In this document: piece by piece, positions 9,473 to 60,340 of the stretch
How the letters are laid out: each line of letters starts with the position of its first letter
Position numbering within the stretch: the first letter of the stretch is position 1
NCBI GenBank assembly: GCA_009846685.1
Contig: VWVY01000004.1
Coordinates: forward strand, 62,001 to 126,000
DNA: 64,000 bases
Source of the DNA: Rhizobiales bacterium SYSU XM002
GTDB taxonomy: Bacteria; Pseudomonadota; Alphaproteobacteria; Rhizobiales; Beijerinckiaceae
Reading direction: 5' to 3'
Made by a program: the position numbers and the translations under genes
Notes under the pieces: generated by a model
What the model was told of the DNA's origin: nothing
The model's input: the letters and a program-made list of their open reading frames with translations, nothing else
Database searches by the model: none

Positions 9473-10761
9473 TCAACCCCTCACCGTCCCGTCACCGACG
9501 ACGCGATACTTGAAGCTGGTGAGCTGCTCGACACCCACCGGCCCGCGCGCGTGCATGCGGCCCGTCGCGATGCCGATCTCGGCGCCGAAGCCAAATTCGC
9601 CGCCATCCGCGAACTGGGTCGAGGCGTTATGCATGACGATAGCGCTATCGACCTCGTTGAGGAAGCGCGCTGCCGCGGCCTCGTCCGCGCTAATGATCGC
9701 ATCGGTGTGGTGCGAGCCATAGCGCTCGATATGGTCGATGGCAGCATCGAGCCCATCGACCACCTTTGCCGCGATGATCTTGTCCAGGAACTCGGTCGCC
9801 CAGTCCTGCTCGGTGGCCGCACTTACGCGAGGATCGACGGCCTGAACTGCTTCGTCGCCCCGCACCGCGCAACCCGCATCAAGCAGTACTGCCACCAGCG
9901 GCGCGAGATGAGTCTTCGCGCAGGCGCGGTCCACCAGCAGTGTCTCCGCCGCGCCGCAGATGCCCGTACGCCGGAGTTTGGCGTTCAGCAGCACCTTCTT
10001 TGCCATGTCGAGATCGGCCTTTTCGTGCACGTAGACATGTACGTTGCCGTCCAGATGGGCGAAAACCGGCACGCGCGCCTCATTCTGCACCCGCTCGACG
10101 AGGCTGCGCCCACCACGCGGGATGATGACGTCGATCGCGCCATCGAGCCCCGAAAGCATCTGCCCCACCGCCTCGCGATCGGCATAGGGCACGAGCTGGA
10201 TCGCTGCTTCGGGCACGCCTTCGGAGACGAGGCCACGGACCATCGCGGCGTGGATCGCCATCGCCGAGCGCAATGCGCCCGAGCCCGTGCGGAGGATCAC
10301 CGCGTTGCCGGCCTTGAGGCAGAGCGCGCCGGCATCCGCCGTGACGTTCGGGCGGCTCTCGAAGATGACGCCCACGACACCGAGCGGCGTGCGCACCCGC
10401 GCGATTCTGAGCCCGTTCGGCTGTGTCCATTCCGCCGTGACAGCGCCAACCGGATCCGGCAGCGCGGCGATATCCTCGACACTTTTCGCGATACTCTCAA
10501 CGCGCGCCCCATCGAGTTTCAACCGGTCGAGAAAAGCGGCATTCTGGCCCTCGGCAGCAGCTTCTGCGCAATCCTTGTCGTTGGCATCGAGAATGACCGC
10601 AAGGTCGGCGCGGATCGCCGCAGCCGCAGCACGAAGGGCCCGCGCCTTCTGTTCCGCGCTCATCAGCCCCAGCACGCGCACCGCACCCCGCGCCGCGCGA
10701 CCCATCGCCCGCATCTCGGCGACGAGCTTGGCCTTTTCGGCGGGATTGGGAACATGCCGGT

Positions 10762-10765
<4 letters not shown>
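9473..10765 (-). CDS. proA: gamma-glutamyl phosphate reductase
   Basis: A 430-residue aldehyde-dehydrogenase-fold enzyme that reduces gamma-glutamyl phosphate with NADPH to glutamate semialdehyde, the second step of proline synthesis. Recognisable segments are [37 protein letters not shown] and the catalytic Cys in [16 protein letters not shown]; the C-terminus [19 protein letters not shown] is the family end motif. Length is typical (about 417-430). The ATG at 10765 overlaps the proB stop by 4 bp (ATGA), so proB and proA are coupled and the labile acyl phosphate can be channelled. Confidence 0.96.
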
Positions 10766-13052
<2,287 letters not shown>

Positions 13053-37267: not shown

Positions 37268-37277
37268 AACCCTTTAT

Positions 37278-49439: not shown

Positions 49440-51011
49440 ATGACCATTCTGATGAATGACGCGACCAACGCGAATATCTCGATCCTTCAACGGACAAACG
49501 AGTTGTTCGGCCTGACGCAGAAGCGCGTCGCGACGGGCCTCAAGGTCTTCGGCGCGGCGGACGACACCACCCGCTACAAAATGAGCGAGACGATGCTCGG
49601 CCGCTCGCGCCAGCTTTCGGACATCAACAACAACATCAGCCTCGCGCTCGGCACGCTCGAAGCGACCGACAAGACGCTGAAGAACATGATCGGCCTGATC
49701 GAATCGGCGCAGACGCTCATCCGCCGCGCGCAGTCGGAAGGCGGCGCCGGGCTCCGTTCTGCCGCCCCGACGGCTAATATCGACAGTTCGACCGTCGTCT
49801 CCGGCGTCTCCGTTGGCTCGAAGTTCTCCATCACCTCGGATATCGGCAAGAACTTCACCTACACCTTCAACTCCACGACCGTTACATGGGGCCAGGTTGT
49901 TGACGCGCTGAACTCGGCCAACATCGGGGTGATGGCGGAATTCGTCCCCTCGACCACGGCCGGCCAATCCAACCTGCGCTTCGTCTCGATCAACGAGAAG
50001 GACTTCACCTTCGACGGCGTGACCGACCAGAACGTCATGGACGATCTCGTTGGCCTCACCTCGCCGACCGGGCAGACCTTCAACGCCAACAACCTTTTCG
50101 CGAACGGCCTCGCCGCCCCGACCGCCAACGAAACCGGGTTCACCGTCGCTTACGGTGGCCAGATTACTGGCACCGCCGGCGCCGGCGTGACCGGAGCGAC
50201 CGCGGTCGCGGCGGGTTCCACACTGGTCTTCGAGGACGCCTCCGGCAACGCGCGCACGCTCTCCTACGGCGCAGCGACCACCGTGGCGCAGGTCATCACC
50301 GACATCACCGCGATGGGCGCCGGCGTCAAGGCCGAGCTTGTCAACCAGACCGGCGGCGGTGCCGGCCCGCTACAACTGCGCCTGCGCAACATGAACGGCG
50401 GGGATATGAAGATCCTCTCCGCCACGGGCGCCTTCGCTCCGGCCGGCACTGTAGCCTTCCCTGGCAACATCGTCGGCTACGCCGCACCGCTCTCGTCGAA
50501 CCACGCGCTGCGCCTCGCCTACGGCCGGCAATACGATGCGATCATCGTCAACCTCGATCTTCTCGTGACGAACAACCCGGTTCAGAACGGCCGCAACCTG
50601 CTTCAGGGCCAGAACATGAACGTGGTGATGGACGAGTTCGCCGGCAATCCGCTGACGATCTCCGGCATCAACATCAGCGCCGCCGGCACGTTGACGATGG
50701 CACAGGCCGGCTCGAGCTGGACCAACGACGCCAATATCCAGACCTCGGCCACGCAAGCCAACCAAGCCTTGATCAATCTGCGCAACTTTCAGGCCCAGTT
50801 CGCGACCTTCAACAGCTACATCAAGTCGCGCTACGACCTGAACAAAGCCTATCAGGGCGACCTCAAGACACAGGGCGACGATCTCGTCGCCGCCGACGCC
50901 TCCGAGGAAAGCGCCCGCCTCGTCGCCCTGCAGACGCGTCAACAATTTGCCGTCCAGGCTCTCACCATCGGTAACCAGAACGAGCAATCTCTGCTTCGTC
51001 TGCTCGGCTGA
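49440..51011 (+). CDS. flagellin, divergent copy
   Basis: A 523-residue flagellin, starting TILMNDATNANISILQRTNE after the initiator Met. The N-terminal D0/D1 helix (TQKRVATGLKVFGAADDTTR) and the C-terminal one (QAQFATFNSYIKSRYDLNKA to NQNEQSLLRLLG) flank a central region with two beta modules: one around ALNSANIGVMAEFVPSTTAG and one around ITAMGAGVKAELVNQTGGG, both of the flagellin hook IN type. It is clearly less similar to the other three copies than they are to each other. Exported unfolded through the flagellar system, without signal peptide. The sequence ACAGAAGGTGC precedes its start, as in the other copies. Confidence 0.93.
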   Translation: MTILMNDATNANISILQRTNELFGLTQKRVATGLKVFGAADDTTRYKMSETMLGRSRQLSDINNNISLALGTLEATDKTLKNMIGLIESAQTLIRRAQSEGGAGLRSAAPTANIDSSTVVSGVSVGSKFSITSDIGKNFTYTFNSTTVTWGQVVDALNSANIGVMAEFVPSTTAGQSNLRFVSINEKDFTFDGVTDQNVMDDLVGLTSPTGQTFNANNLFANGLAAPTANETGFTVAYGGQITGTAGAGVTGATAVAAGSTLVFEDASGNARTLSYGAATTVAQVITDITAMGAGVKAELVNQTGGGAGPLQLRLRNMNGGDMKILSATGAFAPAGTVAFPGNIVGYAAPLSSNHALRLAYGRQYDAIIVNLDLLVTNNPVQNGRNLLQGQNMNVVMDEFAGNPLTISGINISAAGTLTMAQAGSSWTNDANIQTSATQANQALINLRNFQAQFATFNSYIKSRYDLNKAYQGDLKTQGDDLVAADASEESARLVALQTRQQFAVQALTIGNQNEQSLLRLLG

Positions 51012-51035
51012 GCGCGTTTCCCCACCCTCGCACGA

Positions 51036-51069
51036 AGAGCGGTCGGCTTCTCCGGAAGCCGGCCGCTCT
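51036..51069 (+). terminator. Terminator after flagellin 1
   Basis: A 15-bp stem (AGAGCGGTCGGCTTC / GAAGCCGGCCGCTCT with one G-U pair) and TCCG loop, followed by GCATTTTC. Confidence 0.82.
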
Positions 51070-51712
51070 GCATTTTCGGCATCGCTTTTACATGCCAGCC
51101 CCCTTACGGGGTGCTCCGAACACGCCGAAAATCGCAGAAAAAGTTGTCTTCGGACTCAGAAATATCTCGATAACGACCATACCGAGCTATCGATTACCTG
51201 TCTTTGGCGTAAATTACTTTCCATCACGAAGAACGACACCATTGTAACTGATTTTATCGCTCGTTCACGCGAGCCAAAACTGTCACGAAAACAAGAATTT
51301 CCGAAACAAGCGGCCCAATAAAGCACGCTAACATCCAGGATGGCAGGATTTTAAAGCCACATTGCCCGAATACCACGATATCAATTTAGTTGGAATTGTG
51401 ACAACGGACAAAAAATCGCAACTTAGACCGAATAGATTAAAATATAATAATTAGCTAACCATATATAATCCAATTAATACGAGATAAATACTATAGTTGC
51501 CTCAAATTAAGATATTTTAATCTCGTTTTTTTTGTCAACCCCCAGCCCATATCGAATGCATAGATAATCGATTTACCATGCACGTCCTCAAACGAAACGG
51601 GCAGGGTTTTGGTAATTTTTTGAAAGCCGGCCATCGCCAACATGCACCTCAACGCCGCCCCGAAAAGGCAGCGCCACTCCTCCGGGCCCGCAGCGGCGCT
51701 GGAGGTTCTTTT

Positions 51713-51754
51713 CAGGCCAGGACGGCCGACCAATGCAACAGAAGGTGCAAGATT
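51713..51754 (+). promoter_or_regulatory. Conserved flagellin mRNA leader (copy 2)
   Basis: The 42 bp before the ATG are identical but for one base to those before flagellin 3 (54383-54424) and closely similar to those before flagellin 4 (56551-56590). GGCC-AGGAC-GGCC can form a small stem and TGCA-ACAGAAGG-TGCA places the ribosome-binding AGAAGG in a loop. A plausible target for FlbT, which in Caulobacter binds flagellin mRNA leaders. Confidence 0.6.
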
Positions 51755-53335
51755 ATGGCAGTTGTTTTCAATGCCGCCACGGCAACCAACGTTTCCATCC
51801 TCCAGCAGACGAATTCGCTGTTCCAGACCTCGCAGAAGCGGGTCTCCACGGGTAAATGGGTGTTCGGCGCCGCCGATGACGCCACCCGCTACAAGATGTC
51901 CGAGACCATGCTGGGCCGCGCGCGCCAGCTCGATGCGCTCAACAACAACGTCTCGCTCGGCCTCAAGACCCTCGAAGCCACCGACAATACCCTCAAGCAG
52001 ATGATCGGCCTCGTCGAATCGGCTCAGGAACTGGCCCGCAAGGCCCAGGCCGAAGGCGCCGCCGGTATCCGCGGCATCGCGTCCGGCGCCAACATCGCCT
52101 CGACGACCGCCGTCGCGGGTTATGCTGTCGGCGCGACGCTCTCGATCACCTCGGATGGTGGCGCGAACTTCAACTTCACCTTCACCAAGACCGGCATCAC
52201 TTGGGGTGAAGTCGCGGATGCGCTCAACTCGGCCAACATCGGCGTGATGGCGGAATTCATTCCGGGCACGGCGGCGAACCAGACGAACATCCGCTTCTTC
52301 TCGACCAGCGGCAAGGATTTCCGTTTCGACGGCTCCTCGACCCAGACCGTCATGGACGACCTCGCCAACGCCTCGATGGTGGCACCGACCGGCAGCCAGA
52401 CCATGACGTCGGCCGCGCAGGCCAACAACCTGTTCGCCAACGCCGGTGCCGCCGCGACCGCTTCGGAAACGGGCTTCACCGTCTCCTTCGGTGGCGCGAT
52501 CCTCGGTGCGAAGACCGCTGTGACGACCGCGACCGCCGTGGCCGCCAACTCCACCCTCGTCTTCGAGGATGGCAACGGCCAGACCCGCACCCTCACCTAC
52601 GCGGCTGCGACGACGGTTGCCACGGTGATGGCCGACATCAACAACATGAACGCCGGCGTGAAGGCCGAAATCGTCAACACCGGTGCCGGTGCGACGACCC
52701 AGCTTCGCCTGCGCAACACCAACGGTGGCAACATCGTCATCTCGGCCGCGACGGGTGACTTCGCCGCTGCCGGTACGATGGGCTTCACCCCGGCGACGGC
52801 CTATGCGGCGCCGCTCTCGACCAACAATGCTCTCCGCCTGCAGTATGGCCGTCAGTATGATGCGATCATCACCAACCTGAACCTGCTGGCGCAGAACAAC
52901 CCGGTGCAGGCCGGCCGTAACCTCCTCCAGGGCGAAAACCTCTCGGTTGTCATGGACGAGTTCGGCGGCAACCCGATCACCGTCGCCGGCATCAAGATCA
53001 CGGCGAACGGCACCCTGACGATGGCCCAGGCCGGCACGACCTGGACCACGGACGCGAACATCCAGACCTCGGCCACGCAGTCCAACCAGGCTCTCCTGAA
53101 CCTGCGCAACTTCCAGGCCCAGTTCGCGACCTTCAACTCCTACATGCAGGACCGCTACGACCTCAACAAGTCGTACCAGACGGACCTCAAGACCCAGGGT
53201 GACGACCTCGTCGCCGCTGACGTCGCCGAGGAATCCGCCAAGCTGACGGCACTCCAGACCCAGCAGCAGTTCGCGGTTCAGGCTTTCTCGATGGGCACCC
53301 AGAACGCCCAGTCGCTCCTCCGCCTCCTCGGCTGA
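51755..53335 (+). CDS. flagellin 2
   Basis: A 526-residue flagellin, start AVVFNAATATNVSILQQTNS after Met. D0/D1 regions are SQKRVSTGKWVFGAADDATR at the N-terminus and DVAEESAKLTALQTQQQFAV to LLRLLG at the C-terminus. Two central beta modules (ALNSANIGVMAEFIPGTA and INNMNAGVKAEIVNTGAG) resemble the flagellin hook IN motif. No Cys. Near-identical to flagellin 3 and close to flagellin 4, with the same length. A longer frame upstream to 51578 is open but starts before the conserved leader; the ATG at 51755 matches the paralogues. A strong terminator follows and the cysteine-cluster gene converges on it. Confidence 0.95.
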   Translation: MAVVFNAATATNVSILQQTNSLFQTSQKRVSTGKWVFGAADDATRYKMSETMLGRARQLDALNNNVSLGLKTLEATDNTLKQMIGLVESAQELARKAQAEGAAGIRGIASGANIASTTAVAGYAVGATLSITSDGGANFNFTFTKTGITWGEVADALNSANIGVMAEFIPGTAANQTNIRFFSTSGKDFRFDGSSTQTVMDDLANASMVAPTGSQTMTSAAQANNLFANAGAAATASETGFTVSFGGAILGAKTAVTTATAVAANSTLVFEDGNGQTRTLTYAAATTVATVMADINNMNAGVKAEIVNTGAGATTQLRLRNTNGGNIVISAATGDFAAAGTMGFTPATAYAAPLSTNNALRLQYGRQYDAIITNLNLLAQNNPVQAGRNLLQGENLSVVMDEFGGNPITVAGIKITANGTLTMAQAGTTWTTDANIQTSATQSNQALLNLRNFQAQFATFNSYMQDRYDLNKSYQTDLKTQGDDLVAADVAEESAKLTALQTQQQFAVQAFSMGTQNAQSLLRLLG

Positions 53336-53373
53336 TCGGCGACACGAACGAGCAGTTTGCTCCGGAAGAACGG

Positions 53374-53402
53374 AAAGCGGCGGGGAAACCCGCCGCTTTT
53401 TT
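53374..53402 (+). terminator. Terminator after flagellin 2
   Basis: GCGGCGGG and CCCGCCGC with a GAAA tetraloop, flanked by AAA and TTTTTT. The same stem and loop follow flagellins 3 and 4, so the terminator was duplicated with the gene. Confidence 0.92.
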
Positions 53403-53407
53403 CTATG

Positions 53408-53947
53408 TCACGAGCCCGGAATAAACTCGATCTGCCACGGCTGCCCCGGCGCGGCGATATCGCGGAATATCCGCAGTCCACTGGCCAGATGTTCAGATGA
53501 GATAACGACTTCGCGATCGGGCAGCAAAACCCAGCGGCGAGATCCTGCCGCGACAACCACAGGAAATCCGTGTTCGGCTACGATCGCCGCGACACGCCGC
53601 AATCCGGAATAATACGGCTCTTTCCGCCAGGCATCTGGTTTTGCCGGCTCGACCAGCACCTCGTAGGGCGAGGTTTCGCTGGTTCGCGTCAGCAGGAAAC
53701 CGCATCGGTCCGGCCGCCATTCGTCGCCAAGCCGGGCGTTCTTGCGCCAGTCGCAGTTGAAGCGGATGCAGCCGTCCGGCCGACTTGACCAGATGTCGCA
53801 CCCCCGCCCCGGTCGACAATGCCGGCACCACTGACCCGGTGGTTTTGGTGGATCGAGATAGGGAATTCCGGGCAACTTGCAACACATCGAACAGGTACCG
53901 CATTCACGCCCGGCGACAATCGTTTCCCCCTCTGATTGCTGCCCCAT
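53408..53947 (-). CDS. CxxCxxCC cysteine-cluster protein (YkgJ-like), copy 1
   Basis: A 179-residue cytoplasmic protein. The cluster starts ECGTCSMCCK at residue ~16 and continues with GQWCRHCRPGRGCDIW and DGCIRFNCDWRKNARLG, nine Cys or so within the first 70 residues; then EWRPDRCGFLL and PYEVLVEPAKPDAWRKEPYY. The CxxCxxCC pattern is that of the putative zinc- or iron-chelating domain (YkgJ, YcgN and the N-terminal part of the flagellin lysine N-methylase FliB). Convergent with flagellin 2 and sharing its terminator region. Two paralogues lie near flagellin 4. A role in flagellin modification is an inference. Confidence 0.75.
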   Translation of the reverse strand: MGQQSEGETIVAGRECGTCSMCCKLPGIPYLDPPKPPGQWCRHCRPGRGCDIWSSRPDGCIRFNCDWRKNARLGDEWRPDRCGFLLTRTSETSPYEVLVEPAKPDAWRKEPYYSGLRRVAAIVAEHGFPVVVAAGSRRWVLLPDREVVISSEHLASGLRIFRDIAAPGQPWQIEFIPGS

Positions 53948-54424
53948 CGCCCCCTCGAAACCGCCTGGAATCCCGTCGCTTAATCAATCCTGAAGGAAGA
54001 GGGTTAACGGGCCGGTAATGCCGGCGAAAGGCCAGGGCGGCCAAATTTGGAACAGTATCTTAATGTCTATCAGAACGATCCTGCGACAGCTGTTGCGAAT
54101 ACATGATTGCCTAAATAAACATATCTCCAGATCATCGAATTCCGTTATCTCGAAATTACGCTGAGTCGAATTCCGTTAAAGACTATTCATATTCCAAGAA
54201 ATAGATGATTTTCAACTGCTATTCTCTTGGATTTTTACATAATAATAATTTGATAACCATGATAAATTGGCATTTTTTCTTGAATTTCACAAGTAATAAA
54301 TTGGGAAGGAATCCGGGCTGAGTATCCCCCCGTCACGGCTCTCTCCGCGAGGGCAAAGCGCCAATCGGATGCCGTGCGAAGTCAGGCCAGGACGGCCGCC
54401 CAATGCAACAGAAGGTGCAAGATT
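53948..54424. other. Intergenic region before flagellin 3
   Basis: 477 bp without a gene. Positions about 54060-54320 are AT-rich and include ATAACCAT at 54253-54260. The last 42 bp (54383-54424) are the conserved flagellin leader. The 18-bp element found before flagellins 2 and 4 is missing here. Confidence 0.65.
54383..54424 (+). promoter_or_regulatory. Conserved flagellin mRNA leader (copy 3)
   Basis: Same 42-bp leader as before flagellin 2 with a single base change (GACCAA to GCCCAA), including the TGCA-ACAGAAGG-TGCA loop around the ribosome-binding site. Confidence 0.6.
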
Positions 54425-56005
54425 ATGGCAGTTGTTTTTAACGCCGCGACGGCGATGAACGTCTCGATTCTCCAGCAGACGAACTCGCTGTTCCAGACCT
54501 CGCAGAAGCGGGTCTCCACGGGTAAATGGGTGTTCGGCGCCGCCGACGACGCGACCCGCTACAAGATGTCCGAGACCATGCTGGGCCGTGCGCGCCAGCT
54601 CGATGCGCTCAACAACAACGTCTCGCTCGGCCTCAAGACCCTCGAAGCCACCGACAAGACCCTCAAGCAGATGATCGGCCTCGTCGAGTCCGCTCAGGAA
54701 CTCGCCCGCAAGGCCCAGGCCGAAGGCGCCGCCGGCATCCGCGGCATCGCCTCGACAAACAACATTGCTTCGACGACCGCCGTCGCTGGTTATGCTGTCG
54801 GTGCCGTGCTCTCGATCACCTCGGATGGTGGCGCGACCTTCAACTACACCTTCACCAAGACCGGCACGACCTGGGGTGAAGTGGCGGATGCGCTCAACTC
54901 GGCCAACATCGGCGTCATGGCGGAATTCATCCCGTCGTCGACTGCCGGCCAGACGAACATCCGCTTCTTCTCGACCAACGGCAAGGACTTCCGCTTCGAC
55001 GGCTCCTCGACCCAGACCGTCATGGACGACCTCGCCGCGGCGACGTTCATTGCGCCGACCGGCAGCACCACGATGACTTCGGCTGCGCAGGCCAACAACC
55101 TGTTCGCCAACGCCGGCGCCGCCGCGACCGCTTCGGAAACGGGCTTCACCGTCTCCTTCGGTGGCGCGATCCTTGGTGCGAAGACCGCCGTGACGACCGC
55201 GACTGCTGTCGCGATCAACTCCACCCTCGTCTTCGAGGATGGCAACGGCCAGACCCGCACCCTCTCGTATGCCGCCGCCACCACGGTTGCCACGGTGATC
55301 TCGGACATCAACAACCTCAACGCCGGCGTGAAGGCCGAAATCGTCAACACCGGTGCCGGTGCGACGACCCAGCTGCGCCTGCGCAACACCAACGGTGGCA
55401 ACATCGTCATCTCGGCCGCGACGGGCGACTTCGCCGCCGCCGGTACGATCGGCTTCACGCCGGGTTCGGCCTATGCCGCGCCGCTCTCCACCAACAACGC
55501 TCTCCGCCTGCAGTATGGCCAGCAGTATGACGCGGTCATCACCAACCTGAACCTGCTGGCGCAGAACAACCCGGTGCAGGCCGGCCGCAACCTCCTCCAG
55601 GGCGAGAACCTCTCGGTCGTCATGGACGAGTTCGGCGGCAACCCGATCACCGTTGCCGGCATCAAGATCACGGCGAACGGCACCCTGACGATGGCCCAGG
55701 CCGGTGCGACCTGGACCACGGACGCGAACATCCAGACCTCGGCGACGCAGGCCAACCAGGCCCTGATCAACCTGCGCAACTTCCAGTCTCAGTTCGCGAC
55801 CTTCAACTCCTACATGCAGGACCGCTACGACCTCAACAAGTCGTACCAGACGGACCTCAAGACCGACGGTGACGACCTCGTCGCCGCTGACGTCGCCGAG
55901 GAATCCGCCAAGCTGACGGCGCTCCAGACCCAGCAGCAGTTCGCGGTGCAGGCCTTCTCGATGGGCACCCAGAACGCCCAGTCGCTCCTCCGCCTCCTCG
56001 GCTGA
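54425..56005 (+). CDS. flagellin 3
   Basis: A 526-residue flagellin, start AVVFNAATAMNVSILQQTNS after Met. It is nearly identical to flagellin 2 over the D0/D1 regions and only mildly changed in the middle (TNNIASTTAVAGYAVGAVLS; FTKTGTTWGEVADALNSANI). The same two hook-IN-like modules and the terminal LLRLLG are present. One visible difference near the C-terminus is KTDGDDL for KTQGDDL. The even spread of silent changes and identical blocks suggests recent duplication with gene conversion. A terminator follows at 56031. Confidence 0.95.
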   Translation: MAVVFNAATAMNVSILQQTNSLFQTSQKRVSTGKWVFGAADDATRYKMSETMLGRARQLDALNNNVSLGLKTLEATDKTLKQMIGLVESAQELARKAQAEGAAGIRGIASTNNIASTTAVAGYAVGAVLSITSDGGATFNYTFTKTGTTWGEVADALNSANIGVMAEFIPSSTAGQTNIRFFSTNGKDFRFDGSSTQTVMDDLAAATFIAPTGSTTMTSAAQANNLFANAGAAATASETGFTVSFGGAILGAKTAVTTATAVAINSTLVFEDGNGQTRTLSYAAATTVATVISDINNLNAGVKAEIVNTGAGATTQLRLRNTNGGNIVISAATGDFAAAGTIGFTPGSAYAAPLSTNNALRLQYGQQYDAVITNLNLLAQNNPVQAGRNLLQGENLSVVMDEFGGNPITVAGIKITANGTLTMAQAGATWTTDANIQTSATQANQALINLRNFQSQFATFNSYMQDRYDLNKSYQTDLKTDGDDLVAADVAEESAKLTALQTQQQFAVQAFSMGTQNAQSLLRLLG

Positions 56006-56030
56006 TCTGCGATCCTTCGATCAAAAAAAC

Positions 56031-56059
56031 GAAAGCGGCGGGGAAACCCGCCGCTTTTT
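56031..56059 (+). terminator. Terminator after flagellin 3
   Basis: GCGGCGGG (56035-56042), GAAA loop, CCCGCCGC (56047-56054) and TTTTT; same stem as after flagellins 2 and 4. Confidence 0.92.
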
Positions 56060-56550
56060 CGTTTGAACGTGAGGCTACCAGCACCTCTTCCGATAAACTT
56101 TTCGGTGGATTCCAGCGCCTGCTACCCCCGCCAGAATGGGTGAAGCTGTATCGAGCGCCAGCGAGCCCTCTCGCGGACCTACGCCGACAGCGACTCGAAT
56201 ACTTGTCTTCAGACGGAAATTCTCGAAATATTTTTTGTCAAGAAATTAGAAATATCTGTAAAAAATATTCATATATTTCTTATTCAATAAATCGTTAACC
56301 ATAACTATGGCCTTGAAAGAATAGATCTTCATCATATAGATCACGATTAACCCATTTTAATTCTGCAATACACTCGCCAGAATCCTCCACTTCGTATGCA
56401 TATATAGCCTGTTAGTCATGCACGTCCTCAAACGGGACGAGCCGGTTTCTGGTAAGTTTTTGACAGCCCCCTGCCCCGAGTATGCCCGCATCGCAGCCCG
56501 AACGGTTGTGTATTCGAGCGGCAGGGCGGGCATTCGCCTTCCGCATTGTC

Positions 56551-56590
56551 CGGCCAGGATGGCCGATCCATTGCAGCAGAAGGTGCAATT
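56551..56590 (+). promoter_or_regulatory. Conserved flagellin mRNA leader (copy 4)
   Basis: Diverged copy of the flagellin leader: GGCCAGGATGGCC, then TTGCAGCAGAAGGTGCAA, which keeps the TTGCA/TGCAA pairing around CAGAAGG. Confidence 0.58.
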
Positions 56591-58171
56591 ATGTCCGTTG
56601 TTTTCAATGCCGCCACGGCAACCAATGTTTCCATCCTCCAGCAGACGAATTCGCTGTTCCAGACCTCGCAGAAGCGGGTCTCCACGGGCAAATGGGTTTT
56701 CGGCGCCGCCGACGACGCCACCCGCTACAAGATGTCCGAGACCATGCTGGGCCGCGCGCGCCAACTCGATGCGCTCAACAACAACGTCTCGCTCGGCCTC
56801 AAGACCCTCGAAGCCACCGACAAGACCCTCAAGCAGATGATCGGCCTCGTTGAGTCCGCTCAGGAACTCGCCCGCAAGGCCCAGGCCGAAGGCGCAGGCG
56901 GCATCCGCGGCATTACCTCGGGTGTGAACATCGCCTCGACGACCGCCGTCGCGGGTTATGCTGTTGGCGCGACGCTCTCGATCACCTCGGATGGTGGCGC
57001 GAACTTCAACTTCACCTTCACCAAGACCGGCATCACTTGGGGTGAAGTCGCGGATGCGCTCAACTCGGCCAACATCGGCGTGATGGCGGAATTCATTCCG
57101 GGCACGGCGGCGAACCAGACGAACATCCGCTTCTTCTCGACCAACGGCAAGGACTTCAAGTTCGACGGCTCCTCGACGCAGACCGTCATGGACGATCTCG
57201 ACCATGCGTTGTGGGTTGCGCCGTCCGGCGGCCAGGTCATGACCGCGGCGACCCATCCGAACAACCTGTTCGCCAACCCCGGCGCTGCTGCAACCGCGAC
57301 AGAGACCGGCTTTGTGGTCTCATACGGCGGCGTCGCGACCGGATCGAAAACCGGCATCACGACCGCAACGGCGATCGCCGCCAACTCGCTCCTCGTCTTC
57401 GAGGATGCGAACGGCCAGACCCGCACGCTGAACTATACCGCCGCCACGACGGTCGCCACGGTGATCGCGGATATCAACAACATGAACGCCGGCGTGAAGG
57501 CCGAAATCATGAACCTCGGTACAGGCACGACGGCCCAACTGCGCCTTCGCAACACGGATGGCGGAAACATCACGATCTCGGCCGCAACGGGCGCATTCGC
57601 CTCGACCGGCACGATCGGGTTCTCGGTCGGCACCTCCTATGCGGCGCCGCTCTCGACCAACAATGCCCTGCGCCTGCAGTATGGCCGTCAGTATGACGCG
57701 ATCAAGACCAATCTCGATCTTCTGGCGCAGAACAACCCGGTCCAGGCCGGCCGTAACCTCCTACAGGGCGAAAACCTCTCGGTCGTCATGGACGAGTTCG
57801 GCGGCAACCCGATCACCGTCGCCGGCATCAAGATCACCGCCGCCGGCACCCTGACGATGGCGTCGAACGGTTCGACCTGGACCTCGGATACGGCGATCCA
57901 GACCTCGGCGACGCAGGCCAACCAGGCCCTAATCAACCTGCGCAACTTCCAGGCCCAGTTCGCGACCTTCAACTCCTACATGCAGGACCGCTACGACCTG
58001 AACGCTTCGTACCAGACGGACCTCAAGACCCAAGGTGACGACCTCGTCGCCGCTGACGTCGCCGAGGAATCCGCCAAGCTGACGGCGCTCCAGACCCAGC
58101 AGCAGTTCGCGGTGCAGGCCTTCTCGATGGGCACCCAGAACGCCCAGTCGCTCCTCCGCCTCCTCGGCTGA
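56591..58171 (+). CDS. flagellin 4
   Basis: A 526-residue flagellin, start SVVFNAATATNVSILQQTNS after Met. The N-terminal ~190 residues match flagellins 2 and 3 almost exactly, while the segment from about 195 to 380 (LDHALWVAPSGGQVMTAATH; VATGSKTGITTATAIAANSL) has diverged, and the last 130 match again. This mosaic is typical of conserved polymerisation domains and a variable surface region. Two hook-IN-like modules are present. The ATG at 56591 is aligned with the paralogues; an upstream in-frame ATG at 56546 is rejected. Confidence 0.95.
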   Translation: MSVVFNAATATNVSILQQTNSLFQTSQKRVSTGKWVFGAADDATRYKMSETMLGRARQLDALNNNVSLGLKTLEATDKTLKQMIGLVESAQELARKAQAEGAGGIRGITSGVNIASTTAVAGYAVGATLSITSDGGANFNFTFTKTGITWGEVADALNSANIGVMAEFIPGTAANQTNIRFFSTNGKDFKFDGSSTQTVMDDLDHALWVAPSGGQVMTAATHPNNLFANPGAAATATETGFVVSYGGVATGSKTGITTATAIAANSLLVFEDANGQTRTLNYTAATTVATVIADINNMNAGVKAEIMNLGTGTTAQLRLRNTDGGNITISAATGAFASTGTIGFSVGTSYAAPLSTNNALRLQYGRQYDAIKTNLDLLAQNNPVQAGRNLLQGENLSVVMDEFGGNPITVAGIKITAAGTLTMASNGSTWTSDTAIQTSATQANQALINLRNFQAQFATFNSYMQDRYDLNASYQTDLKTQGDDLVAADVAEESAKLTALQTQQQFAVQAFSMGTQNAQSLLRLLG

Positions 58172-58194
58172 TCGGCGATCCTTCGATCAAAAAA

Positions 58195-58225
58195 GAAAGC
58201 GGCGGGGAAACCCGCCGCTTTTTTT
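58195..58225 (+). terminator. Terminator after flagellin 4
   Basis: GCGGCGGG (58199-58206), GAAA, CCCGCCGC (58211-58218) and seven T; same hairpin as after flagellins 2 and 3. Confidence 0.92.
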
Positions 58226-58242
58226 CACGACGTATTGTCGTT

Positions 58243-58791
58243 TCACGAAGCCTTCGCCGGCGCCGTAAACTCGACCTGCCACTCACCACCCTGCAAGGCC
58301 GCCGCACGGAATATCCTGTAGTCCGATCCATAGTGTTCGGCAGGAATGGCAACGTCCTTGTCGGGCAGCATCAGCCAGCGGCGATGGCCGACGAGCACCA
58401 TCATCGCCGTGCGGTTCCGCGCGGCAATCAGACACGCGCTCTTGAGTACGGAATAATAGGGCTCCTTGCGCCAAGCGTCCGGCCTACCCGGATCGACGAT
58501 GATCTCATAGGGCAAATGCGCCGCTGCCTGATTGATAACGAAACCGGCACGATCGGGACGCCAGTCGTCGTTGAGCTGCGCATTCTTGCGCCAGTCGCAA
58601 TTGAAATCAGCGCAGCCCTGAGGACGATTCTGCCAGATCGCGCAGCCTTTGCCCGGCGAGCAATGTTGGCACCATTTTCCGCCGGGTTTCGGTGGATCCA
58701 TGTAGGTGATGGTCATGACCTTGCAGCACATCGTGCAGGTTCCGCACTCGCGCCCCGCAACGAGCGTGGGGGCTGCACTCTCCGTCGACAT
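58243..58791 (-). CDS. CxxCxxCC cysteine-cluster protein (YkgJ-like), copy 2
   Basis: A 182-residue paralogue of the protein at 53408. Cluster residues: ECGTCTMCCKVMTITYMDPP, KWCQHCSPGKGCAIWQNRP and GCADFNCDWRKNAQLNDDWR; then PDRAGFVINQAAAHLPYEII and DPGRPDAWRKEPYYSVLKSA. Cys positions are conserved with the other two copies. It converges with flagellin 4, sharing its terminator, exactly as copy 1 does with flagellin 2, and it is preceded on the same strand by copy 3. No catalytic motif beyond the metal-cluster-like cysteines is visible. Confidence 0.75.
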   Translation of the reverse strand: MSTESAAPTLVAGRECGTCTMCCKVMTITYMDPPKPGGKWCQHCSPGKGCAIWQNRPQGCADFNCDWRKNAQLNDDWRPDRAGFVINQAAAHLPYEIIVDPGRPDAWRKEPYYSVLKSACLIAARNRTAMMVLVGHRRWLMLPDKDVAIPAEHYGSDYRIFRAAALQGGEWQVEFTAPAKAS

Positions 58792-58847
58792 TCCTTGTCT
58801 CCCTGACCGCGACCGTCACCGCATTAAGGGAGCGTAAACCAAGATGG

Positions 58848-59381
58848 TTAATGGTTTGGAAAGGCGGGAGCCCAGGTGACTTGCCCTGCCCGCTCCCGTC
58901 TCTCGATGCAAATCTCGGCGAGATCGACGCCGCGCGGAACCGGGACCTCCCGATCCGGAAACAGGAGTGCCCGTTCTTGGCCGCGAAAGATCACGATTGT
59001 CGATCCCCGACCTTCGAGAATATCCCGCGCGGTCCGGGCCAGTTGGCTGTGGTAAGGCTCGCGGCGATGGGCGTCCGGCTGCGCGGGGTCAACCAGAACG
59101 GCCAGCGGCGCATCCTGATGCGCATGGGTGAGAATGAAGCGCGCACGATCGGGGCGCCACTCCGGCCCGAGGGCAGGATCGAGCCGCCAGACACAGAAAT
59201 AAGTCGCGCACCCCGCTGGCAACGCGTTCCAGATGGCGCAGCCTTGCCCAGGGCGGCAATGGTGACACCATTTTCCTGCCGCCTTCGGTCGGTCGAGCCA
59301 GTCGATGTCGAACAGCTTGCAGCACAGCGCACAAGGTCCGCACGCCTTGTCCGCGACCGGAACTGCCTCAACCCATTTCAT
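58848..59381 (-). CDS. CxxCxxCC cysteine-cluster protein (YkgJ-like), copy 3
   Basis: About 177 residues from the ATG at 59381 (MKWVEAVPVADKACGPCALC). The cluster is ACGPCALCCKLFDIDWLDRP, GKWCHHCRPGQGCAIWNALP and GCATYFCVWRLDPALGPEWR, then PDRARFILTHAHQDAPLAVL and DPAQPDAHRREPYHSQLART. It is more diverged than copies 1 and 2 are from each other. It lies between copy 2 and flbT, upstream on the same strand as copy 2, 57 bp away, so they may be cotranscribed. In-frame starts at 59435 would add 18 residues. Confidence 0.72.
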   Translation of the reverse strand: MKWVEAVPVADKACGPCALCCKLFDIDWLDRPKAAGKWCHHCRPGQGCAIWNALPAGCATYFCVWRLDPALGPEWRPDRARFILTHAHQDAPLAVLVDPAQPDAHRREPYHSQLARTARDILEGRGSTIVIFRGQERALLFPDREVPVPRGVDLAEICIERRERAGQVTWAPAFPNH

Positions 59382-59556
59382 GCTGCTTCTCCACCTCGGG
59401 GCTTTGGCAGATTTAGCGTGCATTATGGTAAACACCTTGTTAATTTTTCTACCTCAGATTGTATTTCAGGCCTGATTCGTCGTGCCTGCAACCTGGGTGG
59501 AAAACGGGATGTTTACGCTCCTGTGATGAACTCGAATGCAAGGAAGGAGGCCAACC

Positions 59557-59991
59557 GTGGCCCTGAAAGTTGAGCTGAAGCCCAACGAACGCATCATCAT
59601 TGGCACCGCTGTGGTGCGCAATGGCGAGCAGCGTACGAGCCTCATCATCGAAGGACACGCTCCGATCCTACGCGAAAAGGATATCCTGAGCCCTCGCACG
59701 GCAGATACGCCCGCAAAGCTGATCTACCTTGCGATCCAGTTGATGTATATCGACGGGCGAGTTGCTGAGAATATTGGGACATATAATAAACTTGTCACGG
59801 ACTTTCAAAATGCTGTGCCAAGTTCAACCAATATTTTGATGGCAATTCACAACCATATCTTAAACGCGGAGTTCTATAAGGCCCTCAAGGAAGCGAAACA
59901 GCTTCTGGCGTACGAGAGGAAGTTATTCGAGCATGCAGCCCGGAATTCAGGCTTACGCGAAGACCCAGTCCCTGGCGCTCAGTCAGCGTGA
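59557..59991 (+). CDS. flbT: flagellin mRNA regulator FlbT
   Basis: A 144-residue protein starting from GTG (VALKVELKPNERIIIGTAVV). RNGEQRTSLIIEGHAPILRE, KDILSPRTADTPAKLIYLAI and QLMYIDGRVAENIGTYNKLV are FlbT signatures. In Caulobacter FlbT represses flagellin translation by binding the fljK leader until the hook is complete. AAGGAGG at 59544-59550 fits the GTG at 59557 (spacing 6). It overlaps flaF by 59 bp. The conserved flagellin leaders 0.5-8 kb upstream are its likely targets. Confidence 0.94.
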   Translation: MALKVELKPNERIIIGTAVVRNGEQRTSLIIEGHAPILREKDILSPRTADTPAKLIYLAIQLMYIDGRVAENIGTYNKLVTDFQNAVPSSTNILMAIHNHILNAEFYKALKEAKQLLAYERKLFEHAARNSGLREDPVPGAQSA

Positions 59992-60340
59992 ACTCGAAGC
60001 ACGCGCACTTCTCAAGGCAGCCGCGAAACTGCAGGCGCTCAAGGAAAACTGGGATCCCAGCATCTCGGCGATCGAAGATGCGCTCTCCCACAACCGAAAG
60101 GTGTGGACGCTGTTTCTCGCTGCCGCGACCGACGAGGAATGCACCCTCCCTCCGGAGGCGCGGCAGAACATCATCGGTCTCGCCCGCTTCGTGGTGAACC
60201 AGTGCATGCGCGTGCTGTTCAATCCTGAACCGGAAAAGCTCGGCCTGCTGATCGAAATCAACCAGCACATCGCCGCAGGCCTCCGCGGCAGCGCGACACC
60301 CGAAAGCGACGCTCAGGCGCTCGCCGCCGCGGCATCCTGA
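59933..60340 (+). CDS. flaF: flagellar regulator FlaF
   Basis: A 135-residue helical protein (QAYAKTQSLALSQRELEARA; LLKAAAKLQALKENWDPSIS; HNRKVWTLFLAAATDEECTL; FVVNQCMRVLFNPEPEKLGL). FlaF is needed for flagellin synthesis or secretion and works against FlbT in alphaproteobacteria. It starts inside flbT, a common arrangement implying coupling. The C-terminal tail (GSATPESDAQALAAAAS) is Ala-rich. Confidence 0.92.
   Translation: MQPGIQAYAKTQSLALSQRELEARALLKAAAKLQALKENWDPSISAIEDALSHNRKVWTLFLAAATDEECTLPPEARQNIIGLARFVVNQCMRVLFNPEPEKLGLLIEINQHIAAGLRGSATPESDAQALAAAAS

Follow-up and report, generated by a model that had tools for sequence, protein, structure and literature searches.

What do three small cysteine-rich proteins do among the flagellin genes of Rhizobiales bacterium SYSU XM002? 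The window, by which we mean the whole 64,000-nucleotide stretch analyzed, lies on contig C10 of a 3.46-Mb genome (G000 in our set), and between 49.4 and 60.3 kb it holds, in order, a gene for a 523-residue flagellin, three genes for 526-residue flagellins with a cysteine-cluster gene behind the first, two more cysteine-cluster genes, flbT, and flaF. Cysteine-cluster open reading frames at 53408, 58243, and 58848 had been proposed in a sequence-only reading, and all three are present, on the minus strand. Cys1 (53408 to 53947; 179 residues) stands alone and converges with the flagellin gene at 51755 to 53335. Cys2 (58243 to 58791; 182 residues) converges with the flagellin gene at 56591 to 58171 and lies 56 bp after Cys3, with which it probably forms one operon. 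Cys3 (58848 to 59381; 177 residues) is divergent from flbT. We regard Cys1 to Cys3 as candidate, as yet unproven, flagellin-handling factors because they sit among flagellin genes, one of them (Cys3) shares a promoter-type element with flbT, and they are most numerous in the only genome of the genus that has no match to the flagellin glycosylation protein FlmG.

The three proteins are paralogs, as had been proposed, with pairwise identities of 45 to 56%: 56% for Cys1 and Cys2 (E = 2e-81), 51% across 140 residues for Cys1 and Cys3 (E = 1e-49), and 45% across 141 residues for Cys2 and Cys3 (E = 2e-47). The common motifs listed in the sequence-only reading are broadly there in approximate form, with QWC for KWC in Cys1, DWRPDR for EWRPDR in Cys2, and GC..YFC for GC..F.C in Cys3. 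Nine cysteines are common to all three; across 34 relatives, 10 of 195 columns were invariant, six of which are cysteines, and C16, C19, and C44 were conserved in at least 90%. The AlphaFold2 model of Cys2 has a predicted local distance difference test score of 91.3. A search of the genome itself returned Cys1 to Cys3 plus one chance-level match (E = 0.2); one protein matching PF03692 is encoded elsewhere, on contig C8.

None of the three reached the Pfam cutoff of PF03692 (23 bits): one (P0002) scored 11.2 bits and the other two (P0001 and P0003) had no match, and among the 34 relatives 20 matched at E values up to 1, the best at 0.0015. Profile-profile comparison with six YkgJ-like proteins, Escherichia coli YkgJ included, gave a probability of 92.8% (E = 3.9e-7) confined to the second cysteine block, and comparison with the L001-type group gave 22.6% (E = 9.3e-4). 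Both YkgJ/PF03692 and the Cys proteins start with CxxCxxCC, followed by C-x-I-Y-x2-RP-x2-C-R-x-F; unlike YkgJ/PF03692, the Cys proteins have two further blocks, WCxHCxPGxGC and VDPxxPDAWRKEPY, and their C-terminal half is rich in strands. The profile of PHROG_9155, a phage family of uncharacterized function for which there is no curated cutoff, matched the cysteine half of the three proteins at E values of 6.1e-10, 1.7e-12, and 2.2e-9; Rhizobium phage RHph_Y1_11 was matched at 8e-18, and the best phage model at 2e-8. No solved structure in the Protein Data Bank stood out as a relative. Judged from titles and the starts of abstracts, no publication was found that pairs "YkgJ family cysteine cluster" with flagellin or that joins flagellin, methylation, glycosylation, and Beijerinckiaceae, and no title on such a system was found for YkgJ, for the CxxCxxCC or iron-chelating domain, or, among the matches listed, for FlaF and FlbT. 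We conclude, from profile comparison, that Cys1 to Cys3 belong, remotely, to the YkgJ/PF03692 superfamily.

The genus was represented by 17 genomes, G000 included, and those with one or more Cys genes at the flagellar locus are called carriers. There are six carriers: G000 has three such genes, G008 two, and G002, G005, G014, and G016 one each. These nine sequences form one clade of an 83-sequence tree (quick search; Shimodaira-Hasegawa-like approximate likelihood ratio test [SH-aLRT] support, 95), requiring one change. The gene adjoining flbT in G002, G005, G008, G014, and G016 is the Cys3 ortholog; Cys2 has a counterpart in G008 (58% identity), and none of the other five carriers has a counterpart of Cys1 at its place. 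Among the six Cys3 orthologs the ratio of nonsynonymous to synonymous substitution rates was 0.09 to 0.32 in 15 of 15 pairs, with synonymous divergence of 0.81 to 2.47, near saturation. We conclude that the Cys genes are real and under purifying selection, as shown for the Cys3 orthologs.

The interval between Cys3 and flbT contains AAC-N6-TTTAC on both strands, one copy facing each gene. The copy toward Cys3 (AACAAGGTGTTTAC; 59428 to 59441, minus strand) ends 46 nucleotides before the Cys3 start codon, and the other (AACGGGATGTTTAC; 59503 to 59516, plus strand) lies upstream of flbT, where all 17 genomes of the genus have it. The copy toward Cys3 is found in six of six carriers (four exact, two with one mismatch); on that side the 11 noncarriers have no exact match and a single one-mismatch match. 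Dinucleotide shuffles of each carrier stretch yielded an exact match in 0 to 0.5% of cases and a one-mismatch match in 1.9 to 13%, so the two one-mismatch carriers are weak taken alone. Across the window there are four exact matches against 0.29 expected, a number that none of 100 shuffles reached; two are those of the Cys3-flbT interval and the others lie at 37268 and 44758. AAC-N6-TTTAC was not seen before Cys1; what lies there, 54 bp upstream, is a weak site that fits a longer pattern with two mismatches. When as many as two mismatches were allowed, that pattern had 10 matches, several of them inside genes, whereas 2.06 would be expected. We conclude, on sequence evidence, that Cys3 and flbT share a promoter-type element.

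The products of flbT (59557 to 59991, plus strand; NF009432 above cutoff) and flaF (59933 to 60340, plus strand; NF009435 above cutoff) carry the NCBIfam names flagellar biosynthesis repressor FlbT and flagellar biosynthesis regulator FlaF. The true start of flbT is likely the GTG at 59557, which follows AAGGAGG, also in relatives; the longest open reading frame is open from 59536. FlbT has a role in flagellin translation. A published account presents FlaF as a chaperone for flagellin secretion (PMC7591256). Together with the divergent arrangement, the shared element, and the conserved cysteines, these roles would also suit a metal- or redox-sensing regulator that tunes flagellin synthesis with FlbT and FlaF and takes no part in flagellin chemistry, an explanation that we consider unlikely.

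A further alternative is that the Cys proteins methylate flagellin lysines in the manner of FliB or form part of such an enzyme. The sequence-only reading had pointed out that this domain type occurs at the FliB N terminus, and PF03692 indeed exceeded its cutoff in two of three FliB proteins tested; moreover, the CX4CX3CC motif of FliB is described as binding a [4Fe-4S] cluster (PMC8598068). FliB (NF038110) acts on flagellin and resembles the Cys proteins in its PF03692-type cysteine N terminus, but its CX4CX3CC spacing is unlike theirs. A proposed comparison with both families thus recovered the YkgJ superfamily, remotely, and not FliB: NF038110 (373 positions) had no match to Cys1 to Cys3 at E values up to 1, the hhalign profile-profile probability was 0.14%, and at 177 to 182 residues the Cys proteins are about half as long. 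FliB matched in 13 of 299 genomes of the phylum (11 above cutoff), none of them closer to the window than the phylum. The middle 250 residues of 24 flagellins, two of which were read from their second codon, contain few lysines: 3 to 5 in G000, 2 to 5 in noncarriers, and 5 and 8 in the carrier G014. With profile, hhalign probability, length, phylum distribution, and lysine counts all unfavorable, FliB-type lysine methylation was dropped as a lead. We conclude, from these sequence comparisons, that Cys1 to Cys3 are not FliB, and a reaction of the FliB kind is highly improbable. The earlier proposal that an iron-sulfur or metal-dependent system modifies or senses flagellin is supported in part: the Cys3/flbT element favors a flagellar role, and a FliB-like reaction finds no support.

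In sister genomes, FlmG-like and sugar genes fill the same interval before flbT that the Cys genes occupy. All 11 noncarriers have matches there to six island genes, encoding a GT41-type transferase (GT41), a nucleotidyltransferase (NTPt), a CDP-glucose-dehydratase-like protein (CDPgd, a label that is our reading of GDP_Man_Dehyd and Epimerase matches), a C-methyltransferase (CMT), an epimerase (Epim), and a CmcI-like O-methyltransferase (CmcI); in G001 the flagellins are on another contig, as its contig starts at the GT41 gene. The island transferase has the tetratricopeptide repeat (TPR) plus glycosyltransferase (GT) layout of FlmG, and this FlmG-like protein and the Cys proteins share no Pfam family. 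Caulobacter FlmG is described as combining TPR and GT-B parts, both needed for filament and motility (PMC7591256). At the locus, the island is incomplete or absent in four of six carriers: G000 has no match to an island gene (window positions 51012 to 59535), G008 has GT41 only, G002 has three of the six (GT41, NTPt, and CmcI), and G005 has a flagellin end directly before Cys3 and no island gene on its cut contig. G014 has all six island genes plus Cys3, and G016, with CmcI beside Cys3 and with GT41, CMT, and the flagellins on another contig, probably keeps the whole island. Genome-wide, a GT41/FlmG-like match at an E value of 1e-10 was found in 16 of 17 genomes and is missing only in G000, the genome with the most flagellar-locus Cys genes; the match in G005 is just 37 to 38% identical. 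CmcI is absent from G000 and represented in G005 and G008 only by homologs of 46 to 49% identity elsewhere; CMT matches elsewhere are 54 to 56% identical in G002, G005, and G008 and 29% in G000.

Our first choice, a tentative one, is that Cys1 to Cys3 represent a flagellum-dedicated branch of a widespread, uncharacterized family and serve in the cytoplasm as metal-cluster accessories that help flagellin to be matured or modified. This reading builds on homology, the single clade, the place beside flbT, purifying selection on Cys3, and the shared element. The conserved cysteines would bind metal, most likely an iron-sulfur cluster; Cys3 and Cys2 would be made alongside FlbT and FlaF while flagellin is translated, and the Cys proteins would act in the cytoplasm on flagellin, their presumed client, before export. 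In this lineage they may partly replace the FlmG-type glycosylation island, which noncarriers keep and of which no gene was found at the window's locus. Filament building in a relative with no FlmG-like match is a puzzle because the Caulobacter filament is described as needing FlmG (PMC7591256), and the Cys genes might explain it. A common, unstudied protein family thereby gains a testable setting, with flagellin as candidate client and motility as visible output, and genomes that keep, erode, or do without the flagellin sugar island offer a natural comparison.

Several observations weigh against the maturation or modification accessory. The flbT-like element was first noticed in an alignment and counted afterwards, and the carriers are related, so six of six does not represent six independent events. 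A blind comparison of 16-mers with up to two mismatches (the upstream regions of the three Cys genes against those of four flagellins and flbT, and Cys1 against Cys3) found nothing shared and therefore missed the Cys3/flbT element too. Flagellin composition in G000 showed no shift and lysines were not enriched. The Cys genes are not strictly tied to island loss, since G014 and probably G016 keep the island with Cys3; a contig end truncates the G005 locus; and the genome-wide search covered GT41, CmcI, and CMT, the other three island genes (NTPt, CDPgd, and Epim) being sought at the locus only. The pattern of carriers and island loss is confounded by ancestry because 10 noncarriers form one clade of the FlbT-FlaF-FlgL-FlgK tree (G009 is the sole noncarrier outside it), which leaves only one or two independent pairs. 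Moreover, 11 of the 17 genomes lack flagellar-locus Cys genes even though their flagellins are of the same type. The co-occurrence suggested as a check was thus split: a Cys gene stands by flbT in all six carriers, but strict co-occurrence fails because flbT and this flagellin type are present in all 17 genomes and flagellar-locus Cys genes in only 6.

Among the family members examined, the flagellar ones are a minority. A three-sequence profile matched in 30 of 61 genomes at E values up to 0.001, and when 298 genomes from the bacterial family were searched with a 10-sequence profile (A2), 197 had a match at 1e-20, in varied neighborhoods. Three overlapping sets of loci were inspected. In the first (29 loci), for which the queries carried M as their first residue and two flagellins were read from the second codon, flbT was present at five loci and flagellin at four of those five, all in the genus; no flagellin was found at the other 24, although some 2.4 kb from one of them (L063) there is a weak match to FlgK. 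In the second (53 loci), flbT was present at five loci of the genus (flagellin in view at two) and flagellin also at L011 and L089, both in G030, a genome of another genus. In the third (27 loci), flbT was present at three loci of the genus (flagellin at one), flagellin at L107 of G030, and none at the other 23. In G030 a Cys gene (L089, 9360 to 9902) ends 77 bp from a gene for a 303-residue flagellin (9980 to 10966), tail to tail; the 10-sequence profile contained this G030 sequence, so its own score is inflated. The pairing could be independent recruitment or chance, a chance neighbor being plausible, and it is not counted as support because this copy falls outside the flagellar clade and dozens of loci were examined.

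A second clade of the family (12 sequences; SH-aLRT support, 99) is entirely cox linked; tree rows L015 and L017 to L020 represent the same genes as the cox-linked L085, L082, and L086 to L088. The Cys gene there is flanked by genes for a CoxD/MoxR-like AAA ATPase and a VWA_CoxE protein, near molybdenum hydroxylase subunits, as seen at L080 to L088, L092, L119, and L127, the last with two tandem Cys copies in G076. Oligotropha CoxD is described as involved in assembly of the [CuSMoO2] cluster (PMC3471820). In the genus, CoxE is present in 17 of 17 genomes and a Cys gene beside it in 9; G006 has a 52-residue match at that place. We conclude that the cox-linked copy is also optional. This optional copy, the wide and varied distribution, the blind upstream comparison, and the stray flagellin neighbor in G030 are all what would be seen if a dispersing, generally useful accessory gene had landed at several loci, here by a self-duplicating flagellin array, and had no flagellin-specific job. 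That explanation ranks a close second, possible though less likely than not; the single clade, the fixed place by flbT, the flbT-like element in every carrier, and purifying selection on Cys3 speak against it. On the boldest reading, flagellin in this one genus would be matured or modified by a glycan-free system that depends on a metal cluster and is replacing FlmG-type glycosylation, and that system would be built from a phage-carried family that also serves maturation of CoxD/CoxE-type molybdenum enzymes; we rate this reading as improbable.

All four flagellin genes of the locus are on the plus strand. The 523-residue flagellin (49440 to 51011) is of a more distant type, and the three 526-residue flagellins (51755 to 53335, 54425 to 56005, and 56591 to 58171) are near identical, the second and third sharing 94% and 88% identity with the first. 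It is unlikely that a flagellin gene and a Cys gene were recently duplicated as one unit, as Cys1 and Cys2 are 56% identical versus 88 to 94% for these flagellins. Cys1 and Cys2 end 71 to 72 bp from the flagellin stop codons (gaps 53336 to 53407 and 58172 to 58242), and both gaps hold the stem AAAGCGGCGGG-GAAA-CCCGCCGCTTT. The terminator scan placed a terminator usable on both strands at 58196 to 58221, between the third near-identical flagellin and Cys2. The plus-strand terminator stem and T run of the first flagellin, at 53374 to 53402, face Cys1; this site is absent from the scan's minus-strand list, and its T run is poor on that strand. The idea that two Cys genes converge exactly on a flagellin terminator is thus firm for the flagellin side and for Cys2. 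The terminator is the flagellins' own, since the near-identical flagellin ending at 56005 has the same stem and no convergent Cys gene. In G008 the flagellin gene beside Cys2 (L065, 8230 to 9794) is interrupted by a frame change near its 3′ part, either real or an assembly fault. Sister contigs at L067, L070, and L076 to L079 break off within or at a flagellin, which means that the numbers of flagellin and Cys copies counted in those genomes may be too low.

Relatives are also encoded on phages (L191, 3492 to 3992; L192, 3423 to 4007; L193, 3501 to 3785; and L194, 2504 to 3016), one of them a Rhizobium phage. Unlike Cys1 to Cys3, the PHROG_9155-like genes in these four stretches stand amid DNA metabolism and hypothetical genes and not by flagellins. 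In S-8S29 the gene follows a DNA adenine methylase gene. In cyanophages S-ShM2 and S-CAM1 it has the sliding clamp gene on one side and clamp loader genes on the other, with cobS a few genes away, and the S-ShM2 copy adjoins a gene annotated as ferrochelatase.

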